Both the position numbers and the translations under genes were made by a program. Below are positions 48,526 through 58,064 of a DNA stretch of 64,000 nucleotides, piece by piece; position 1 is the first letter of the stretch; every line of letters starts with the position of its first letter. The notes under the pieces were generated by a model, which was given only the letters and a program-made list of their open reading frames with translations, was not told the origin of the DNA and made no database searches. The DNA comes from Cytophagales bacterium (GTDB taxonomy: Bacteria; Bacteroidota; Bacteroidia; Cytophagales; Cyclobacteriaceae): contig JAFLBR010000009.1 in assembly GCA_017303795.1 (NCBI GenBank), positions 124,001 through 188,000 of the forward strand, in the 5' to 3' direction.

Positions 48526-49890
48526 CTAATAACACCCATCTAAAAACTTCACGGTCTTTGCCAGGTTATCCCACTTCTGCATATCGTTTTGCATGGGCTT
48601 GGCTAACTCCAGGTATTTATCGCAGCCCATCAGCAACACATCAATCTGATCTTTGTATTGGCTTTTATACACAATGGTTTTTTCGTTGGTGATTTTATTA
48701 AAGATCACCCACTCTATATTTAATATCCCACCAGGTGCAGCCGTTGCTTGCCTGCCTTGAATGGCTAACTCCAATGCGCCCAGGTTTGCTTTCAGGCTTT
48801 CGCTATCCGAATTTTCAATTGCATCCTGTGCTGTTTCGTAGCCACCCAACTGGGCTAACTGATCGCGTAACGCTATTAACTCTTCAGTGGAAGAAACCCG
48901 GATTACACTATCCATATTGGAAACATAGTTGTTCCGCTTCTGATCTTCTTTTACCACTGCAGTAGCCGCGGCAGAAGTACCTACTGCCACAGCCGATTTT
49001 ACCAGCGCGGTGGCTCTTTCATTAATAGTGGTAGGGTTGGGATTACGATATAATTGAAAGGTGTTGCCGTTGAAGCCTTCCGGCACAAAAACATTTTCAA
49101 TTACGGTGTACTTTGTTTCCACACCTTTATTCACGTAAGTAAAACCGGTAATGGTAGCAGGGGTGTACTCTGCCAGTTTATCGCCACCCTTAAAAATAAT
49201 CCGATCGAGATTGCGCACACCCTGTTCGTAAAGCAAGGTTACTTCGCCATTGGTTTTACCTGCCGCTGTTATAATACTTCCCGGAAAGGAACGCTTGTTA
49301 TTTTGTTCACGCGCAAGTTTAGCTTGTACTACTTCGGCCTCGCTTACGGTATAGCCATAGCGGGCTATGTCTTTCGCATCAAACTTTTCTTTTCCTGAAG
49401 CGGTCTTTACTTCAATATCTTCCAAAACTCCATCCTTGCGTCTCAACTTTAGTTCACCTTCATACTTTGTTCCATTTCGGTGAACCACATACCCATTACG
49501 AGGCGTGGTGCTTTCAATTACTTTACTCATCACCGTACCCATATTACGCCACTCATACATACTCTCCGGGCTTTCGTTTACCGGCCCACCACCAACTGTT
49601 GCGCTGGCATTCGGGTTTACATTCGTTAAGCCATACCCTTTAAGCGAGGCCACCGGAAAGGTGAGGTATTTCTGATCGCCCATAAACTCTACCTCCTTTA
49701 CCAACTCGGCAGAACCAATCAGGGAAATTTTTCCATCCATACGCTTACCCGATTTCAATACTACATACCCCGGTTGAAGTTCAGTTTTGCCACGCTTCCA
49801 TTGGTACGCGCCAGCAGGCGATTCATTTGTTTGCGCATAAGCGGATAGGGAAAGCGTAATAATTAAAACTATTACCGGCAATGATTTCAT
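48526..49890 (-). CDS. Exported protein with three internal repeats
   Basis: A 454-residue protein with a signal peptide (residues 1-19). Three blocks of ~50-80 residues share a pattern. The first begins GYVVLKSGKRMDGKISLIG (~residue 42), the second GYVVHRNGTKYEGELKLRR (~138) and the third GSIITAAGKTNGEVTLLYE (~220). Each goes on with (E/L)xxIxFK-type strands and ends in a Gly-Tyr pair such as KGYGL, ARYGY and TGFTY. These look like small beta-rich modules. The C-terminal ~130 residues are helical (VIRVSSTEELIALRDQLAQLGG). The family is not recognised; surface or periplasmic location is likely. Confidence 0.65.
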   Translation of the reverse strand: MKSLPVIVLIITLSLSAYAQTNESPAGAYQWKRGKTELQPGYVVLKSGKRMDGKISLIGSAELVKEVEFMGDQKYLTFPVASLKGYGLTNVNPNASATVGGGPVNESPESMYEWRNMGTVMSKVIESTTPRNGYVVHRNGTKYEGELKLRRKDGVLEDIEVKTASGKEKFDAKDIARYGYTVSEAEVVQAKLAREQNNKRSFPGSIITAAGKTNGEVTLLYEQGVRNLDRIIFKGGDKLAEYTPATITGFTYVNKGVETKYTVIENVFVPEGFNGNTFQLYRNPNPTTINERATALVKSAVAVGTSAAATAVVKEDQKRNNYVSNMDSVIRVSSTEELIALRDQLAQLGGYETAQDAIENSDSESLKANLGALELAIQGRQATAAPGGILNIEWVIFNKITNEKTIVYKSQYKDQIDVLLMGCDKYLELAKPMQNDMQKWDNLAKTVKFLDGCY

Positions 49891-50235
49891 GGGGGATAGG
49901 GATAATGGTTAACCTAAAAGTAAGCATTTAAACCAAACCGAATCATATCAGTAACGCTAGCATTGGGCTAACTACCTTATAGCATCTATGAAGTATGCTT
50001 TCATGTACCTATGGAATTGATGGGTTACTTATAGCCTTACCCGGTAAGTGTGTTGATGCAGTTTATACTGTTAGAACAGTAAAGAAGTAAGTACTTATAC
50101 CTGCTTAGTGTTAGGCTAACCATAGCTTTTAAGAATAAATATTGACAAGTACTTTACTTTAATAATAATATTTATTGAAATTGCGTACGCTATGGCAAAT
50201 AGTAATTTACTGCACCCTCTGCGGTTATCGGGTTT
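49891..50235. other. Intergenic region, divergent promoters
   Basis: About 345 bases between two divergently transcribed genes (leftward exported repeat protein and rightward ATP-grasp operon). Very AT-rich near 50140-50180 with TTTAATAATAATATTTATTGAAATT. No recognisable -7 box or repeat was found, and no gene is proposed. The length leaves room for regulation of the ATP-grasp/SET operon. Confidence 0.5.
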
Positions 50236-51327
50236 ATGACACTACTCAACGATACCACCGCCTATAAAATCTGGATATTTGCTCCTTATCTGGAGACGGA
50301 AGACCCGACTCTAAAATTTTACTACGACTATACTCAAAGCATTGAAGAATACACGCGGGTATTCGCTGAAATCAATTGCGAATGGGAATGGGTAAATGTA
50401 ACGGTACATAACATTGCCGAAGCAATAGAGCGGGTAAAGAGCTACTCCACCAAGCAAAGCATAGTACTAAACCTGTGCGATGGCGATGAAATTAACAACG
50501 TCCCCGGAGTATCGGTTATTCATGCATTAGACGAAAGCGGTATTACCTACACCGGTTCCGATTCTTACTTCTATAATGTAACCACTTCTAAAATCACCAT
50601 GAAGGAAGCTTTTGGTAAAGCCGGGGTGGCCATGCCGGGGTGGCAAAAGCTAAACGGACACATCGATCCGGATCTTTTCAAGAAGGTGGGCAAACCTATT
50701 ATTGTTAAGCCTGCCGTTTCGGCTGGCAGCATGGGCATCAGTGTAAAGAACGTTGTTAACGGCAAGCGCCAGTTAAAGAGTGTACTCAACGAACTACACG
50801 AAGGCTTTAAAGGTTGGGATTTGAATACAGCCGGTTTGTTGGCCGAACAGTTTATAATCGGGCGCGAGTTTACCACACTGTTGGTAGGATCGCACCATAA
50901 ACCCGAACAGATTAAATTCTATCAACCTATAGAACGTGTATTCCATAAAGGCTTACCCGAAAAAGAACAGTTCCTTTCTTTCGAACGCCTGTGGGAAGCA
51001 TACGATGAAGAAGCACCGCCACCGGACAATGGATTTCTGTATGAATACGCCCCGGTTATGGATTTCTGTCTGGCCCAGGAATTAAAAGAGCTAAGCATTG
51101 ATGCCTTTAAAGCCGTGAAAGGCGTAGGTTATGCACGGCTCGATTTCAGGCTGGATAAGAAAACCGGAAAACTATTTGTATTAGAGATTAATGCCCAATG
51201 TGGCTTAAGCGAAGACGAGAACTATACCTCCATAGGCGCTATTCTGCGCGTAAGTAATAAAACCTTCACCAACCTGATTGTAGAAGTGCTGGAAGATGCC
51301 CTGCTTCGCAATACAGCCAACAGCTAA
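50236..51327 (+). CDS. D-Ala-D-Ala ligase-like ATP-grasp enzyme (first of operon)
   Basis: A 363-residue soluble enzyme. The N-terminal domain holds NLCDGD (where canonical ligases have LHGxxGEDG) and IHALDESGITYTGSDSYFY. The ATP-grasp core has KPAVSAGSMGISVKN (the KPxxxGSSxG loop), GLLAEQFIIGREFTTLLVG, and the metal-binding end GYARLDFRLDKKTGKLFVLEINAQCGLS. The canonical NTxPGMT substrate loop is NAQCGLSED here, so it is unlikely to be a true D-Ala-D-Ala ligase. It should join a carboxylate to an amine with ATP use. It lies 32 bases before a second ATP-grasp gene fused to SET. Confidence 0.87.
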   Translation: MTLLNDTTAYKIWIFAPYLETEDPTLKFYYDYTQSIEEYTRVFAEINCEWEWVNVTVHNIAEAIERVKSYSTKQSIVLNLCDGDEINNVPGVSVIHALDESGITYTGSDSYFYNVTTSKITMKEAFGKAGVAMPGWQKLNGHIDPDLFKKVGKPIIVKPAVSAGSMGISVKNVVNGKRQLKSVLNELHEGFKGWDLNTAGLLAEQFIIGREFTTLLVGSHHKPEQIKFYQPIERVFHKGLPEKEQFLSFERLWEAYDEEAPPPDNGFLYEYAPVMDFCLAQELKELSIDAFKAVKGVGYARLDFRLDKKTGKLFVLEINAQCGLSEDENYTSIGAILRVSNKTFTNLIVEVLEDALLRNTANS

Positions 51328-51359
51328 CAAACAAAATCCCTGTAAAAAGAAATCCGGAT

Positions 51360-52805
51360 ATGAAGGTTTGTGTGTTGCAGCCCGATTACAGTACAACCGA
51401 AGTTGATTATAAAAACTACGATCCGCCCCGTAACCTGGCCCCACTGTTACCAAACGATCAGGTAGATCATGTATTCCTGAATAAGCTTACCACGTACAAA
51501 CAACTTAAAGAACTGCGCAAGCAGAAGTACGACATCTTTATAAATCTGTGCGAAGGGTATCTGGATTGGTCTGTCCCTTCCATTGATGTGATCAACGCGA
51601 TGGATTCGCTCAATCTGCCATACACTGGCCCGAATGCTATTCTGTACGATCCGGCCAAGCCGTTAATGAAGTATGTAGCTTATTGTGCGGGTGTTAAAAC
51701 GCCACTCTTTGCCGAAGTTACCAGCACCAAAGACCTTGAAGCGAAAGTAAGCAAGCTAACGTTTCCGTTGTTTGTAAAACCAGCCAAAGCAGGCGATAGT
51801 CTGGGCGTGGATGATGAATCGCTGGCCAAAGACTTTGCACACTTAAAACATAAAGTGGAGAGCCTGATGGAAGAAGGCTACGATGAAATCTTAATTGAAG
51901 AATACATAGCCGGGCAGGAGTTTACCGTGTTGGTAGCGGCCAACGTTCGGCCAACGTTCGGCTCCAAAGCATTTAAACCTGTTGAATACAAATTCCCGAA
52001 AGGGTATGCCTTTAAAACCTATGCATTAAAAACATCTGAGCTGCATACCGATGTAAACAAACCCTGCGAAGATGCTGCCCTGGAAACCCGGTTAAAATCT
52101 GCTGCCGAAAAAATCTTTACCGGATTTTCGGGTGTGGGTTATGCGCGGTTGGATTTTAGAGTAAACGAAAAGCAGGAAATCTATTTTCTGGAAATCAACT
52201 TTACGTGTTCTGTATTTTATCAGGATGGCTACGAAGGTTCTGCCGACTACATTCTTCAGTTTGATCCCATCGGCAAAGCCGGATTTCTAAAACACATTAT
52301 TGCCGAAGGTATTGCCCGCCATCAGGCCAAACAAAAAAAGTATCGCATTAAAGGTAATTCCATTAATGGCTATGGAATTGTTTCGCAGAAGGCGATTCAA
52401 AAAGGTGAAGTGATTTTTAAAATTGAAGAATCGGCCCAGCGCATTGTTACCAAACGGTATGTAGAACAAAACTGGACGCCCGAACAATTGGAAGAGTTTC
52501 GCCATTATGCTTACCCGGTTTCGGATGAAGTATATATTCTGTGGGATCAAAAACCTGAAAACTGGGCTCCGCAAAATCATAGCTGCGCACCCAATACCGT
52601 TTACGATGGTCTTAACCTGATAGCGCTGCAAAACATAGAAGCGGGCGAAGAGCTTACCTTGGATTATGCCGATTTGTTGGATGATAACATTCAATCATTT
52701 GTGTGTACGTGCGGTCATCCTAACTGCAGGAAAGTTGTTTCCGGCCGGGCCGATAATTCGGTAACACACCGCGAGAAGATTAATGTAAATCCTCCGCAGC
52801 GGTAA
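51360..52805 (+). CDS. ATP-grasp ligase fused to a SET-domain methyltransferase
   Basis: A 481-residue protein. Residues ~1-320 are a second D-Ala-D-Ala ligase-like ATP-grasp domain: NLCEGYLDWSVPSIDVINAMDSLNLPYTGPNA, KPAKAGDSLGVDDESL, LIEEYIAGQEFTVLV, and GVGYARLDFRVNEKQEIYFLEINFTCSVF. Residues ~329-460 form a SET domain with RIKGNSINGYGIVSQKAIQKGEVIF, the SAM-binding NHSC at 406-409, GEELTLDYAD with the catalytic Tyr, and a post-SET zinc cluster CTCGHPNC (Cys449, 451, 456). All SET hallmarks are intact, so lysine-type methylation is plausible. The tandem with the first ligase suggests a two-ligation, one-methylation pathway making a modified peptide or amino-acid conjugate. Substrate unknown. 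Confidence 0.85.
   Translation: MKVCVLQPDYSTTEVDYKNYDPPRNLAPLLPNDQVDHVFLNKLTTYKQLKELRKQKYDIFINLCEGYLDWSVPSIDVINAMDSLNLPYTGPNAILYDPAKPLMKYVAYCAGVKTPLFAEVTSTKDLEAKVSKLTFPLFVKPAKAGDSLGVDDESLAKDFAHLKHKVESLMEEGYDEILIEEYIAGQEFTVLVAANVRPTFGSKAFKPVEYKFPKGYAFKTYALKTSELHTDVNKPCEDAALETRLKSAAEKIFTGFSGVGYARLDFRVNEKQEIYFLEINFTCSVFYQDGYEGSADYILQFDPIGKAGFLKHIIAEGIARHQAKQKKYRIKGNSINGYGIVSQKAIQKGEVIFKIEESAQRIVTKRYVEQNWTPEQLEEFRHYAYPVSDEVYILWDQKPENWAPQNHSCAPNTVYDGLNLIALQNIEAGEELTLDYADLLDDNIQSFVCTCGHPNCRKVVSGRADNSVTHREKINVNPPQR
51938..51959 (+). repeat. 11-bp tandem duplication within the ATP-grasp/SET gene
   Basis: GGCCAACGTTC occurs twice without a gap (51938-51948 and 51949-51959) inside codons for AANVRPTFGSK. 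Eleven is not a multiple of three, so loss or gain of a unit would shift the reading frame. The tract is GC-rich and partly palindromic. Confidence 0.6.
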
Positions 52806-52828: not shown

Positions 52829-53428
52829 CTAAATCACCTTAAAAGACTTAATCAATTTCTTTATCCCCTTTCTATACCCGCGATTAAGAGCATAATCTGA
52901 ACTGGTTGGGTTAATGCTGTAATCCGCGCGACTGCCTCCATAAATAAATGGCGATATTGTTGTCTTAACATCACATTTCCAGATTAGACGCGGCATCTTC
53001 AGGTCGTATAAGGTAAAATACAATCTGGCTTCTTTAAAATCGTAATTTGAGCTGGTCTGTTCGAAATTATCCTTCAGATATCCGATTCTGGTGAGAAGAA
53101 TAAAGTCAAGATTCAATTTCTCAGAAATAATTTTTGCCGTCATTGAATCCACTTCATTCATGCTGGATAAATCAATACCAAATTGTTTAAGCTTAAACTC
53201 GGAATCAGAAAATAGCACCGGTTCAATTCCCGATTTTGATTTTAAGGTTTCATTTGCCAAGGCCGTCAGGTCTTGATAATTGTTGCCCTTATTTCCGGTA
53301 AGGTCACAAACCAGCAGTCGGTCGCCAGTACCTACCCCAATAAATTTAGGAGTAGAATTTATTTTGCTTGATCCACACGATAAAAAAATTACCGGGATTA
53401 GTAATGTTAAAAGTATGCGCATCCTCAT
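52829..53428 (-). CDS. Uncharacterised lipoprotein
   Basis: A 199-residue protein beginning with a lipoprotein signal, MRMRILLTLLIPVIFLSCGSS (lipobox FLSC). Upstream in-frame codons to 53575 look non-coding, so the ATG at 53428 is preferred. The mature part has no recognised domain; RLLVCDLTGNKGNNYQDLTALANETLKSK and FILLTRIGYLKDNF suggest an alpha/beta fold of the kind seen in CsgG-like or nucleotide-stress lipoproteins. It is convergent with the ATP-grasp/SET gene, 23 bases away, and divergent from the cytochrome gene. Function unknown. Confidence 0.7.
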   Translation of the reverse strand: MRMRILLTLLIPVIFLSCGSSKINSTPKFIGVGTGDRLLVCDLTGNKGNNYQDLTALANETLKSKSGIEPVLFSDSEFKLKQFGIDLSSMNEVDSMTAKIISEKLNLDFILLTRIGYLKDNFEQTSSNYDFKEARLYFTLYDLKMPRLIWKCDVKTTISPFIYGGSRADYSINPTSSDYALNRGYRKGIKKLIKSFKVI

Positions 53429-53640
53429 ATGCTTTGAATGTGAAAATATTAAATAAAACCAGATGGCTTTGCACCAAACACAAACCTTGAAAAAGGATTT
53501 GAATCGAGTTAACGAACTTAAATAATTTTTACACCGTACTGGTTTTCCACCTCCGGTATCCGGATTTATAATCAAATCCTGTAACTTTCCTTAACCGGAT
53601 TGCTTTGGCAGCGATGCAACCGCTCACTTCACTTACCACC

Positions 53641-56325
53641 ATGAAGAAAATACTTTACCTGATTACAATAACGGCCATTTCGGTGGTCGCAGTCTGGTAT
53701 TTCCTCCCCAATTCTAAGATTGATTACAACACACAGGTAAAACCCATCCTCAATAAAAAATGTATTGCCTGCCATGGTGGCGTTAAGCGCGAGGCTGAAT
53801 TCAGTTTGTTGTTCCGGCAGGAAGCACTCGCCAAAGCAGAGTCGGGAAAGTATGCCATCGTACCCGGTGATGCCGCACACAGCGAACTGGTAAAACGTAT
53901 TACGGCAACCGATCCGCAAGAGCGCATGCCCTACAAAAAAGACCCGCTTACAAAAGAAGAGATTGACATTCTTACAAAATGGATTGAAGAAGGTGCCGCG
54001 TGGGGCGATCATTGGGCTTACGTGGCCGTGAAAGAACAAACTGTTCCTGAAAAAAATAATTGGACAAAAAACGATGTTGATGCTTTCATTCTTGAAAAGC
54101 TGAACGACCATAATCTGGAACCTTCGGCTGTAGCCGATAAAGCCACGCTGCTCAGAAGAGTTAGTCTCGATCTGATTGGCATTCCCGCTCCCGAACCAAT
54201 TGCCCAACGCTTTTTATCGACCACCGATCCAAACGCCTATGAAATGTTGGTGGATGAACTGCTTGCCTCCAAACAATATGGCGAACGCTGGACCAGCATG
54301 TGGTTAGACCTGGCGCGCTATGCCGATACCAAAGGGTACGAACGGGATGACAGTCGCGCCATCTGGCGTTACCGCGATTGGGTGATCAACGCCTTTAATG
54401 CCGATATGCCCTATAACCAGTTTATCACCGAGCAATTGGCGGGCGATTTACTGGATAGTCCTACCGATGATCAATACATCGCTACAGCCTTTCATCGCAA
54501 CACGATGACGAATGATGAGGGCGGCACCGACAATGAAGAGTTTCGTACGGCTGCGGTGTTGGATCGTGTAAACACCACGTGGGAAGCGTTGATGGGAACT
54601 ACGTTTGCATGTGTGCAATGTCATAGTCACCCGTACGATCCGTTTACACACGATGAATATTACAAGTTCATGGCTTTCTTTAACAACACCCGCGATGAAG
54701 ATACCGAAGCCGAATATCCTTTGCTGCGTCATTTCGAAAAAGAAGATGCTGAAAAACTAAACACACTTACTGCGTGGATTGATCAAAACATCTCAGCCGA
54801 AAAGGCTAAAGAAGTTTATCGCTTTGCGAAAACATTACAACCCAGTATCAACTCTATCCAAGCCGATCAGTTTATCAACAGCGAATTAACCGATACCAAG
54901 TGGCTCATATTTCGTAATAACGCTCAATGCCGGTTGCCGAATGTAACCCTTACCGGAAGCAATAGACTCATCTATCGCTACAGTAGTTGGGTTAACGGTG
55001 GCGTTTGGAAAATTCATTTGGATAAACCCGATGGACCGATTATTAAAACCATTGCGGTTAAGCCCACAAATAACCAATGGCAGATTGTAGATTTTACATT
55101 CGAACCAATTGATGGCGCACACGATTTGTATTTTACCTATACCAGTCCCAACCTCAAAACTGCCGATGACAGCGGAATGATTTTCGATTGGTTTTACTTT
55201 ACAGATGATTGGGACAACAAAAACACTGAGATGAGCAAAACGTTTTGGGAGTTGGTGCGCAAAGAGCCACCCACTACGCCCATCATGTTCGATAATCCTG
55301 AAAAGATGAAGCGGCCCACGCAAATTTTTGAACGGGGCAATTGGTTAGTAAAAGGCGATGTGGTGGAAGCTGCCGTTCCGCATACGCTGAATGCATTTCC
55401 AAAAGATGCTCAGTCAAATCGTTTGGGACTTGCACATTGGATGACAGACCCAACCAATCCCTTAACCGCACGGACTATTGTGAATAGAATCTGGGAACAG
55501 ATTTTTGGAACTGGTCTTGCCGAAACCGTGGAAGACCTCGGTACACAAGGCATCGCGCCCACGCATTCGGAATTGCTCGATCACTTAGCGTGGAAGTTAG
55601 TGCATGATTACAACTGGAGTTTAAAAAAGCTGATGCGCGAAATTGTATTATCGGCTACGTACCGGCAAACATCTGATGTAAATGAAGAACTTCTGGAAAA
55701 AGATCCGCTCAATAAATTATATGCGCGAGCACCGCGTGTGCGGCTCTCTGCCGAGCAATTGCGCGACCAGGCATTGGCTGTAAGCGGATTGTTAAGTACA
55801 AAAATGTATGGCCCGAGTGTAATGCCGTATCAACCGGCTGGTATTTGGAAGTCGCCCTGGAACGGACAAGATTGGAAAATGAGTACGGGAGAAGACCGGC
55901 ATCGCAGATCACTTTATACTTATCTGAAACGCACTGCACCTTACCCTTCCATGCTTACTTTCGATGGTGCTTCACGAGAAGTATGTACCGCCAGGCGTAT
56001 TCGTACCAACACACCTTTGCAGGCATTGGTAACGTTAAATGATTCTGTGTATGTGGAAGCTGCACATCATCTCGCGTTGAAGATGCAAACACAAACTTCC
56101 GTGAAGGAACAAATTGGTATGGCCTATGAAATGGCCACCGGCCAAAAAATTTCCGAACGAAAATTAGCTGCGCTTGAAAAATTATATACAGAAGGCATGA
56201 AAGAATATCAGGGCGGAACGATGGTAAAAGTTCGCAACAAAAACACAGGTGAACCCCAATTGAAAGCATTGAGTCTGGTAGCGGCCGCGATTTTGAATCT
56301 GGATGAAGTGGTAACGAAGAATTGA
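53641..56325 (+). CDS. Planctomycete-type cytochrome c/DUF1549/DUF1553 protein with CBM-like insert
   Basis: An 894-residue protein with an N-terminal membrane anchor (MKKILYLITITAISVVAVWYF). The ATG at 53641 gives this signal directly; a TTG 12 codons upstream is less likely. Residues ~35-115 form a PSCyt1 heme domain (IACH motif CIACHGG, then VKRITATDPQERMPYKK). DUF1549 follows (ERWTSMWLDLARYADTKGYERD, CVQCHSHPYDPFTHDEYY). A CBM6-like insert lies near 430-520 (GGVWKIHLDKPDG, IDGAHDLYFTYTSP). DUF1553 ends the protein (PRVRLSAEQLRDQALAVSGLLS). The family is linked to substrate oxidation at the cell envelope, with the chemistry not known. It heads a long rightward cluster. Confidence 0.92.
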   Translation: MKKILYLITITAISVVAVWYFLPNSKIDYNTQVKPILNKKCIACHGGVKREAEFSLLFRQEALAKAESGKYAIVPGDAAHSELVKRITATDPQERMPYKKDPLTKEEIDILTKWIEEGAAWGDHWAYVAVKEQTVPEKNNWTKNDVDAFILEKLNDHNLEPSAVADKATLLRRVSLDLIGIPAPEPIAQRFLSTTDPNAYEMLVDELLASKQYGERWTSMWLDLARYADTKGYERDDSRAIWRYRDWVINAFNADMPYNQFITEQLAGDLLDSPTDDQYIATAFHRNTMTNDEGGTDNEEFRTAAVLDRVNTTWEALMGTTFACVQCHSHPYDPFTHDEYYKFMAFFNNTRDEDTEAEYPLLRHFEKEDAEKLNTLTAWIDQNISAEKAKEVYRFAKTLQPSINSIQADQFINSELTDTKWLIFRNNAQCRLPNVTLTGSNRLIYRYSSWVNGGVWKIHLDKPDGPIIKTIAVKPTNNQWQIVDFTFEPIDGAHDLYFTYTSPNLKTADDSGMIFDWFYFTDDWDNKNTEMSKTFWELVRKEPPTTPIMFDNPEKMKRPTQIFERGNWLVKGDVVEAAVPHTLNAFPKDAQSNRLGLAHWMTDPTNPLTARTIVNRIWEQIFGTGLAETVEDLGTQGIAPTHSELLDHLAWKLVHDYNWSLKKLMREIVLSATYRQTSDVNEELLEKDPLNKLYARAPRVRLSAEQLRDQALAVSGLLSTKMYGPSVMPYQPAGIWKSPWNGQDWKMSTGEDRHRRSLYTYLKRTAPYPSMLTFDGASREVCTARRIRTNTPLQALVTLNDSVYVEAAHHLALKMQTQTSVKEQIGMAYEMATGQKISERKLAALEKLYTEGMKEYQGGTMVKVRNKNTGEPQLKALSLVAAAILNLDEVVTKN

Positions 56326-56330
56326 TAGAT

Positions 56331-56362
56331 TAAACCGCGGAGGCGCAAAGAGCGCTAAGTAG
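56331..56362 (+). repeat. Half copy of AACCGCAAAGGCGC-type repeat
   Basis: TTAAACCGCGGAGGCGCAAAGAGCGCTAAG at 56331-56360 matches one arm of the hairpins at 45911 and 46725. The inverse arm is missing, so it does not form a hairpin here. Confidence 0.55.
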
Positions 56363-56403
56363 TTTTAAGAGAAATTGATTTGACTGTAATTGAATAATTT
56401 GCT

Positions 56404-56445
56404 CCTAACTCGTTCCTCTCTGCGGAGAGGGATTAAGGGTGAGGC
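56404..56445. repeat. Palindromic repeat (CCTCTC/GAGAGG family), copy in front of DUF1501 gene
   Basis: CCTCTCTGCGGAGAGG (56415-56430) is a near-palindrome, followed by AAGGGTGAGGCCAACAA. It is related to 19601-19655 and to 56521-56573, with which it shares the 15-base tail GGGTGAGGCCAACAA. Confidence 0.7.
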
Positions 56446-56520
56446 CAACAAAGATGGTTTGTGGGGACACAAACCATGGAATAGTGTGAGGAAGACAGAA
56501 ACTTAAACGAAATAAATTAA

Positions 56521-56573
56521 CACGAGTCCAAGCCCCTCTCCTTTGGAGAGGGGTTGGGGTGAGGCCAACAACC
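56521..56573. repeat. Palindromic repeat (CCCCTCTCC/GGAGAGGGG family) abutting DUF1501 start
   Basis: CCCCTCTCC (56533-56541) pairs with GGAGAGGGG (56545-56553) with a three-base loop, followed by TTGGGGTGAGGCCAACAACC. It ends at the base before the ATG of the DUF1501 gene, so the hairpin would occupy the 5' leader and could affect translation. Confidence 0.75.
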
Positions 56574-58064
56574 ATGAACGAAAAATTTATCCACGAACTT
56601 CAGCGTAAGCAACTCGAGGAAACTACGAGGCGACATTTCCTGCGCGAGTGTATCGCAGGCATGGGTGGACTTGCACTGGCATCGGTATTTGGAAGTTGTA
56701 ATCCGTTCGAGAAGCAAGACAAATACGCTGCGTTGTTTTCATCTAACCCGCTTGCACCCAAAGCACCGCAGTTTATTCCCAAAGCAAAATCAGTAATCTA
56801 TCTGCACATGGCCGGTGCGCCTTCGCAGTTAGAGTTGTTCGATTACAAACCTGCACTGCATAAACTCGATGGCCAGGATTGCCCGCAGTCGTTGCTGGAA
56901 GGAAAAAAATTTGCTTTCATTCGGGGTGTACCCAAAATGTTGGGGCCGCAAGCCAGCTTTAAACAGCACGGACAAAGTGGAGCGTGGGTATCGGAAAACC
57001 TGCCACACTTTTCTTCAATTGTAGATGAAGTTACATTTCTCAAAGCCATGCAAACCGATCAGTTCAATCATGGCCCGGCACAATTATTAATGCATACCGG
57101 TAGTGCGCGCCTTGGGCGACCGAGTATGGGCTCGTGGGTAACCTATGGTTTGGGAAGTGAAAATCAGAACTTGCCCGGCTTTGTAGTGCTTACTTCAGGT
57201 GGCACCAATCCGGATGCAGGCAAGAGTGTGTGGGGCAGTGGATTTCTTCCGTCTGTGTATCAAGGCGTGCAATGTCGTAGCGAAGGCGATCCGGTGTTGT
57301 TCATCAAAGATCCGGAACATATAACACGCGATCTGCGCAAAGCTTCTATTGATGCGATTAACGAAGTGAATAAAATTCATTACGAAGAAAAAGGCGATCC
57401 GGAAATTCTATCGCGCATAGCGCAATATGAAATGGCGTATCGCATGCAGATTTCCGTACCGGAAGTAATGAACATTAATGACGAGCCACAATACATTCAC
57501 GAAATGTACGGCACCAAACCTGGCGAAGTAAGTCTGGCCAACAACATTCTGCTTGCGCGAAAGCTGGTAGAGAAAGGTGTGCGCTTTGTTCAGATTTTTG
57601 ATTGGGGTTGGGATAGCCACGGCACAGATTCTAATCTTGCCATTGATGTTGGCTTTGTGAATAAATGCCGCACGGTAGATAAAGCCATGACGGCTTTGAT
57701 ACTTGATTTAAAACAACGCGGATTGTTAGATGAAACATTAGTAGTTTGGGGTGGTGAGTTTGGTCGCACGCCTATGGCCGAAAATCGCGAAGGCAAAAAG
57801 AATCCGTTTAAAGGTCGTGATCATCACACCGAAGCATTTACGGTATGGATGGCTGGTGGCGGAGTGAAGAAAGGATTTACCTATGGCGAAACGGATGAGA
57901 TTGGCTACTCCGCTATCAGCGGCAAAACAACTCCGTTCGATTTGCAGGCTACCATTCTTAATCAACTTGGATTCGATCATGAAAAACTCACATACGAATT
58001 CCAAGGGCGACCATTCCGCTTAACGGATGTACATGGAAAAGTAATTCACGAAATACTGGCTTAG
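56574..58064 (+). CDS. DUF1501-family Tat-exported protein
   Basis: A 496-residue protein. The N-terminus has a twin-arginine signal, TTRRHFLRECIAGMGGLALASVFG, indicating folded export. The body shows the family blocks SVIYLHMAGAPSQLELFDYKPALHKLDG, KHGQSGAWVSENLPHFSSIVDEVTFLKAMQTDQFNHGPAQLLMHTGS, and VVWGGEFGRTPMAENREGKKNPFKGRDHHTEAFTVWMAGGGVKKG. DUF1501 proteins have an alkaline-phosphatase-like fold and are almost always paired with the cytochrome/DUF1549/DUF1553 protein upstream, as here. I chose ATG 56574; a GTG at 56559 would lie inside the palindromic repeat. The substrate is not established. Confidence 0.93.
   Translation: MNEKFIHELQRKQLEETTRRHFLRECIAGMGGLALASVFGSCNPFEKQDKYAALFSSNPLAPKAPQFIPKAKSVIYLHMAGAPSQLELFDYKPALHKLDGQDCPQSLLEGKKFAFIRGVPKMLGPQASFKQHGQSGAWVSENLPHFSSIVDEVTFLKAMQTDQFNHGPAQLLMHTGSARLGRPSMGSWVTYGLGSENQNLPGFVVLTSGGTNPDAGKSVWGSGFLPSVYQGVQCRSEGDPVLFIKDPEHITRDLRKASIDAINEVNKIHYEEKGDPEILSRIAQYEMAYRMQISVPEVMNINDEPQYIHEMYGTKPGEVSLANNILLARKLVEKGVRFVQIFDWGWDSHGTDSNLAIDVGFVNKCRTVDKAMTALILDLKQRGLLDETLVVWGGEFGRTPMAENREGKKNPFKGRDHHTEAFTVWMAGGGVKKGFTYGETDEIGYSAISGKTTPFDLQATILNQLGFDHEKLTYEFQGRPFRLTDVHGKVIHEILA

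Follow-up and report, generated by a model that had tools for sequence, protein, structure and literature searches.

A pair of adjacent genes with an unusual domain composition is located in a 64,000 nucleotide stretch of contig JAFLBR010000009.1 (hereafter the window), from the genome assembly of a Cytophagales bacterium (GCA_017303795.1). The first open reading frame (ORF1) encodes a predicted ATP-grasp ligase with the fold of the D-alanine-D-alanine ligases (Ddl), while the second (ORF2) encodes a further ligase of this type, fused in the same chain to a SET methyltransferase domain. Both genes are found on the forward strand with a gap of 32 bases, as proposed in an earlier note on this DNA, with which the coordinates and Pfam domains agree. 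Since the neighboring genes on both sides are on the reverse strand, ORF1 and ORF2 are taken to form a two-gene unit (Table 1). The promoter-like match upstream of ORF1 is a weak candidate only, and this signal does not rise above chance, as the region contains seven matches of this kind and shuffled sequence a mean of 6.7.

Table 1. Features of the ligase-SET gene pair and its flanks (positions are those of the window).
Feature	Position	Strand	Description
ORF1	50236-51327	+	363 aa; Ddl-fold ATP-grasp ligase, non-wall
ORF2	51360-52805	+	481 aa; ATP-grasp ligase fused to SET
ORF2, N-terminal part	51360-52334	+	Approximately residues 1-325; second Ddl-fold ATP-grasp domain
ORF2, C-terminal SET	52368-52751	+	Residues 337-436, post-SET Cys 449/451/456, to approximately residue 464
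Upstream flanking ORF	48526-49890	-	
Downstream flanking ORF	52829-53575	-	
Promoter-like match TTGACA-16-AATAAT	50142-50169	+	Upstream of ORF1; weak candidate only

Both translated products contain the Dala_Dala_lig_C domain (PF07478; ORF1 e-value: 1.2e-13; ORF2 e-value: 3.2e-19). Their AlphaFold models (predicted local distance difference test, pLDDT: 89.5 for ORF1 from an alignment of 42 sequences and 84.6 for ORF2 from 48) match Ddl structures best in Foldseek comparisons (ORF1: 3r5x; e-value: 2.5e-19; TMt: 0.81; ORF2: 7u9k; e-value: 6.6e-18), which bears out the fold suggested in the earlier note. The ATP- and magnesium-binding residues are present in ORF1 (K158, E204, E211, R301, D303, E317 and N319) and ORF2 (K140, E180, E187, R263, D265, E278 and N280), and the K, E, E, R, D and N positions are invariant in all 42 aligned ORF1 and all 48 aligned ORF2 proteins (the latter comprising the window ORF2 and proteins from 47 of the 54 loci described below), while position 278 of ORF2 is occupied by E in 45 and by D in three of the 48. 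Both proteins thus have the fold and the residues by which ATP-grasp enzymes are recognized. Ddl enzymes are further characterized by an N-terminal GGxSxE motif and a C-terminal NTxPG loop. In ORF1 the D-Ala motif is replaced by NLCDG (79-83) and the loop by NAQCGLS (319-325), and ORF2 contains NLCEG (62-66) and NFTCSVF (280-286) where Ddl has its substrate motifs, so that the loss of the canonical loop was correctly read beforehand. The NLC cysteine is retained in 42/42 ORF1 (Cys81) and 47/48 ORF2 (Cys64) proteins and the NxxC cysteine in 42/42 (Cys322) and 48/48 (Cys283), respectively. A canonical Ddl is encoded elsewhere in the same genome, on contig C1, and scores 332 bits against NCBIfam TIGR01205, whereas ORF1 and ORF2 reach 69.3 and 77.9 bits, far below the cut-off of 245.65. 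The GGRSVE, omega-loop KY and NTIPG motifs of this Ddl are, by alignment, missing in both. On the strength of the separate canonical enzyme, the low scores and the lost substrate motifs, we therefore conclude that ORF1 and ORF2 are not wall ligases, as had been thought probable.

The SET domain in the C-terminal part of ORF2 (residues 337-436; Bitscore: 48.0 against a cut-off of 22.4; e-value: 1.8e-12) is complete, with NHSC at 406-409, Tyr436 (LTLDYAD) and Cys449, Cys451 and Cys456 placed as previously described. N406, H407, C409, Y436, the three post-SET cysteines and both GxG glycines (Gly337 and Gly339) are identical in 48/48 ORF2 proteins, while position 408 varies, with S in 43 proteins and C in the other five. 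In its Pfam score and its GxG, NHxC, tyrosine and post-SET cysteine motifs, ORF2 has the features of a SET methyltransferase, as far as these can be judged from the sequence. A chance origin of the fused frame is ruled out by its relatives, mostly full-length, which are encoded at 54 loci among the genome contigs searched. Comparison with near relatives gave ratios of non-synonymous to synonymous substitution (dN/dS) of 0.040-0.076 for the ligase part (7/15 pairs estimable) and 0.035-0.074 for the SET part (4/15 pairs estimable), with dS saturated in the remaining pairs. By this measure the SET domain, with its invariant motifs, is under purifying selection.

The solved structure closest in sequence to the SET domain of ORF2 is that of BurB (9l4t; e-value: 1.8e-10), followed by KMT2A (e-value: 3.6e-7). 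BurB, like MSMT, is a SET-domain methionine S-methyltransferase of dimethylsulfoniopropionate (DMSP) synthesis. It is 172 amino acids in length (PMC12542666) and is reported to convert free methionine to S-methylmethionine (SMM) by methylation of the sulfur (PMC12542666; PMC7496086). As the nearest solved relative methylates the sulfur of methionine, the SET domain of ORF2 need not target lysine. BurB is also the closest solved sequence to a stand-alone SET protein of approximately 165 amino acids, here termed c2, which is encoded near ORF2 in many loci (c2 profile e-value: 1.5e-18 against BurB and 1.2e-8 against the best histone enzyme). Like c2, BurB is a small stand-alone SET protein, and Gln75, His81, Pro85, His93, Tyr124, Glu128 and Phe135 of BurB are shared by 19/19 aligned c2 proteins, as are its cysteines and its GA-x-x-L tail. 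Of the BurB positions in contact with the substrate or SAM, His93 and Tyr124 belong to this invariant group, that of Thr73 is occupied by T in 16/19 and S in 3/19 c2 proteins, and Ser88 is replaced by L in 19/19. The c2 gene of the window genome is located on contig C1 (632146-632616). Two adjoining small SET-like proteins of 167 and 136 amino acids, the first judged by eye, are furthermore encoded on contig C5 (locus L110, 6440-7357), and the genome thus seems to have several SET proteins.

The 54 loci were obtained by a pattern scan which favours near relatives and do not represent a census; their parts were counted by clustering the neighbors and by scanning all frames of at least 50 codons with profiles. 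ORF1 adjoins ORF2 in 48/54 loci, and the pairing on which the earlier note had made its reading depend is therefore retained in relatives. Three of the six loci without an adjacent ORF1 are cut by contig ends (L045, L048 and L086); the others are L079, L082 and L078, the last from a genome (G212) which appears to carry ORF1 on another contig. The c2 gene is found within 29/54 loci and outside the DNA around ORF2 in 18 of the 25 remaining genomes, giving 47/54 genomes in total; in one of them (G414) it is apparently in two pieces. A transmembrane-only protein of the ATP-binding cassette (ABC) type, approximately 300 amino acids in length (PF13748; ABC_membrane_3), is encoded in 18/54 loci, with the L079 copy on the opposite strand, and a full ABC transporter in two (L080 and L081), so that a membrane part is present in 20/54. 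The transmembrane-only protein (e.g. L046, 3119-3979) is conserved with the ligases yet has no ATP-binding domain, and its role in transport is putative.

The gene order is c2, ABC transporter, ORF1, ORF2 in the Rhodocyclaceae metagenome-assembled genome (MAG) L080, where ORF1 is present in two copies, and in Propionivibrio dicarboxylicus (L081), while in five loci of family f18 (L097-L101) it is c2, ORF2, ABC transporter and a third small SET protein, with no ORF1; a further locus of this family (L095) runs into the contig edge after ORF2. In L046 and L053, among others, adjacent genes are almost in contact or share a few bases, and in several genomes ORF2 has none of the other parts adjoining. 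Two loci belong to isolates, namely P. dicarboxylicus DSM 5885, with the ligase pair, c2 and the ABC transporter, and Ferruginibacter paludis CECT 8366 (L067), with the ligase pair and the transmembrane-only protein, and no c2 at 1e-12. The other neighbors inspected, mostly by eye, vary by lineage and were set aside as a guide to the substrate. Two large ORFs of 906 and 501 amino acids (window positions 53605-58064) likewise accompany the ligase pair at several loci of near relatives, which looks like local synteny rather than a part of the pathway.

The distribution of the set is patchy. A full-length fusion (at least 36% identity) is present in 17 of 395 Bacteroidota genomes, a collection which overlaps with the 54 loci (L069 = G091; L078 = G212), and c2 (>100 bits) in 16, including a fragmentary copy in G342 which is cut by a contig end. 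This threshold was set after the list had been viewed, in the gap between 104.9 (G259) and 77.5 bits (the third SET protein of f18). Both genes occur together in 15/395 genomes (Fisher p = 4e-24, uncorrected for relatedness among genomes that are not independent), with G259 containing c2 only. The c2 gene may lie far from ORF2, being located on another contig in the window genome and in G212, and 1.7 Mb away in G292. Orthologs of ORF1 (>490 bits) are found in six of the 17 ORF2-bearing genomes, three additional rows of this search at approximately 140 bits being ORF2 itself. G212 retains four parts across three contigs, with ORF2 on C31, ORF1 and c2 on C18 and the membrane part on C120. Three strong matches to the transmembrane-only protein (>440 bits) were found among the 395 genomes, all in ORF2 carriers (G033, G115 and G212), and none of 17 weaker matches (118-248 bits) falls in such a carrier; at 1e-20 the protein was not found in 14/17 ORF2 carriers. 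Within the family of the window genome 2/148 genomes carry the fusion, and among the 101 relatives of G417 only G417 itself does, while a divergent form is found in 5/195 genomes of the class of G211 (including G211 and G340, both already counted among the 395), one of the five matches covering query residues 1-322 only. Behind the divergent gene of G211 there are FGase-like, QEGLA/MATCAP-like and glutathione-synthetase-like genes (L096, 1741-7492, reverse strand). These were discarded as conserved partners, as none was seen beside ORF2 in G340, G606, G643 or G631 (blastp to the G211 and G340 loci and inspection by eye). By record title, the set occurs in Bacteroidota, in two records of Rhodocyclaceae type and in one MAG labelled Fibrobacteres. 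A patchy distribution of this kind is typical of accessory traits which are moved or often lost. A plasmid-borne element was rejected, as ORF2 has no match in 72,556 plasmid records (tblastn, 1e-20), as was a defence system, with no PADLOC-DB family matched at E 0.01 by ORF1, ORF2, c2 or the transmembrane-only part.

We suggest, with somewhat more confidence than doubt, that these genes constitute a patchily distributed accessory small-molecule pathway, in which amino-acid-like units would be coupled by Ddl-fold ligases, and the units or their product methylated by SET enzymes of the BurB type. Each ATP-grasp domain would use ATP to activate a carboxylate as an acyl-phosphate and join it to an amine, as in Ddl, with substrates other than D-Ala, while the SET domain of ORF2 and c2 would transfer methyl groups from S-adenosylmethionine (SAM) to the amino acid units or to the molecule assembled from them. 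This end product is likely a short, peptide-like compound that carries a methylated sulfonium or amine, and is probably exported where an ABC transporter or the transmembrane-only protein is encoded alongside. In lineages without ORF1 and c2, a simpler product is presumably formed by ORF2 on its own. Ligation and methylation are suggested by what is known of the families and by the intact residues; gene order, protein families, intact catalytic residues, conservation and co-occurrence are observed directly, and from these we infer that both activities are real, the order of the steps, export, and that the substrates are small molecules, the last because of the Ddl fold, the kinship with BurB, the transporter links (20/54) and the failure to find a precursor peptide that is widely shared. 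The earlier note had envisaged ligation followed by methylation of an amine. Both reactions fit the present data, but lysine is not specifically indicated with BurB as the nearest relative, the order proposed is not the only one, and more parts (c2 and the membrane or ABC proteins) are involved.

The kinship with BurB favours a sulfonium target (methionine). An amine target (lysine or a polyamine) is left open by the NHSC motif and by a fusion in G203 (L140, 4989-8318, reverse strand) in which SET, AdoMet decarboxylase and spermidine synthase domains are combined in 617 amino acids. This gene adjoins one for a protein of 483 amino acids which begins with a SET domain and has a tail resembling ATP-grasp, the tail being judged by eye and from its weak similarity to the ORF2 profile, while Pfam gives SET only. 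The G203 genes suggest N-methylated polyamine chemistry and provide a second hint of SET domains in small-molecule chemistry. More tentatively, and with the odds slightly against us, we propose that SET enzymes, whose fold is almost exclusively associated with protein methylation, may act in a new class of pathway as tailoring methyltransferases for peptides made by Ddl-fold ligases, independently of ribosomes and non-ribosomal peptide synthetases, that ORF2 may be a 'ligate-and-methylate' fusion, and that the NLC/NxxC cysteine pair, placed in the substrate pocket of both ligases by analogy with Ddl, may mark a shared unusual substrate such as a sulfonium or methyl-ammonium amino acid.

Several observations weigh against the small-molecule pathway. 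The corresponding motif in BurB is LHSC, while c2 and ORF2 have NHSC, as do lysine methyltransferases. Moreover, the BurB contacts Val130 and Met132 are kept in 0/19 c2 proteins, Arg133 is R in 3/19 and His138 is H in 4/19. As methionine is reported to be held in BurB through main chains (PMC12542666), these side-chain contacts are weak evidence on the substrate. Having BurB as nearest relative does not fix the substrate of c2 or of the ORF2 SET domain. The 50 best fold matches listed for ORF2 are all Ddl-type, and the assignment of its SET half is consequently based on Pfam, phmmer and motifs; model confidence in this half is uneven, with blocks of 64-92 over residues 331-460. The association of the parts is also incomplete. 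ORF2 occurs without c2 in G340 and G211, and c2 is absent at 1e-12 from 7/54 genomes, while 11/17 ORF2-bearing Bacteroidota genomes have no ORF1 ortholog. A membrane part is missing from 34/54 loci, the transmembrane-only form was not found in the window genome, and this protein lacks an ATPase domain.

The main rival explanation is protein modification, in which the ATP-grasp domains would attach amino acids to some cellular protein in the way of RimK or the tubulin ligases, and the lysines of that protein would be methylated by the SET domains. Protein lysines are the targets of most SET enzymes characterised, and c2 and ORF2 keep the canonical NHSC-type motif. The occurrence of ORF2 with no other part adjoining, in several genomes, also speaks for this reading. 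The human protein TTLL12 moreover combines SET-like and ATP-grasp-like domains in one chain (PMC3520985). Against this, both ligases have the fold of Ddl, which also supplies their top fold matches and whose family takes free amino acids as substrates, the closest relative of the SET parts is an enzyme of free methionine, a transporter or transmembrane-only protein accompanies 20/54 sets, and no target-like protein was seen among the neighbor clusters, which were inspected by eye and not exhaustively. We regard protein modification as unlikely, although it is the strongest competitor of the small-molecule pathway.

ATP-grasp, methyltransferase and ABC transporter genes are also a usual combination for the maturation of ribosomally synthesized and post-translationally modified peptides (RiPPs), and the set could accordingly crosslink and methylate a ribosomal precursor, in the manner of graspetides. 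However, among 685 short ORFs no family is widely shared, the widest occurring in five of 68 loci, in a scan of frames of 25-120 amino acids within 2 kb and not half inside an ORF of at least 160 amino acids, which leaves unlinked or shorter precursors outside its scope. The four families reaching five loci are a leader frame, an SSB-like protein, the frame antisense to it and the third small SET protein. Nor does any RiPP maturase appear among the best 25 NCBIfam rows for each ligase (of 43 and 41), and RiPP maturation is considered improbable. Least credible of all is that ORF1 and ORF2 are ordinary or resistance-type D-Ala-D-X ligases with an irrelevant C-terminal domain. The fold and Pfam family are indeed the same, but the sub-cut-off scores beside a canonical Ddl and the missing Ddl motifs led us to reject a wall or resistance function, and purifying selection on a SET domain with invariant motifs is at odds with its irrelevance.

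The folds and chemistry of the small-molecule pathway are known, while their combination is undescribed. A literature search by literal term matching, with subscription papers mostly outside its reach, returned no description of this ligase-SET set among the papers listed, in agreement with the earlier note, which knew of no characterised system of this form. SET enzymes have been studied as histone and protein lysine methyltransferases. If our interpretation is correct, small-molecule SET chemistry extends beyond a single pathway, as two or three SET proteins are encoded beside ATP-grasp ligases, and the conserved set, the ligase pair of which is open to testing in two isolates (L081 and L067), points to an unknown metabolite. 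In PMC7496086, natural-product methyltransferases before BurB are described as found only in classes I and III.

The set shares features with several known systems. With Ddl, ORF1 and ORF2 have the fold and the ATP/Mg residues in common, and differ in the near-invariant cysteines at two places where substrate motifs are replaced, in their low Ddl scores and, for ORF2, in the SET fusion. Two adjoining Ddl-like ATP-grasp genes are also found in KamA-linked loci of other Bacteroidota (L102-L106; e.g. L103, 5196-8833), where the pair is followed by a GNAT gene and one for a lysine 2,3-aminomutase-like radical SAM protein, possibly for a β-lysine-containing peptide or osmolyte. The NLC motif is present in 2/9 of these ligases, but the loop is NPNPD or NPLPG in 9/9 and NxxC occurs in none, and their partners are the LAM_C radical SAM protein and the acetyltransferase (Pfam on L103; the other loci by the same clusters), with no SET gene in the clusters seen. 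BurB, the closest relative of the SET parts, delivers SMM to a decarboxylase, a transaminase and a dehydrogenase (PMC12542666), whereas c2 accompanies ATP-grasp ligases and in ORF2 the SET domain is fused to one. TTLL12 resembles ORF2 in joining SET-type and ATP-grasp-type domains in a single chain, but their order is opposite and the ligase is of the TTL rather than the Ddl type (PMC3520985). TTLL12 reportedly has no activity in vitro and lacks critical residues (PMC3520985), whereas the motifs of ORF2 are intact, and the two fusions are likely of independent origin.

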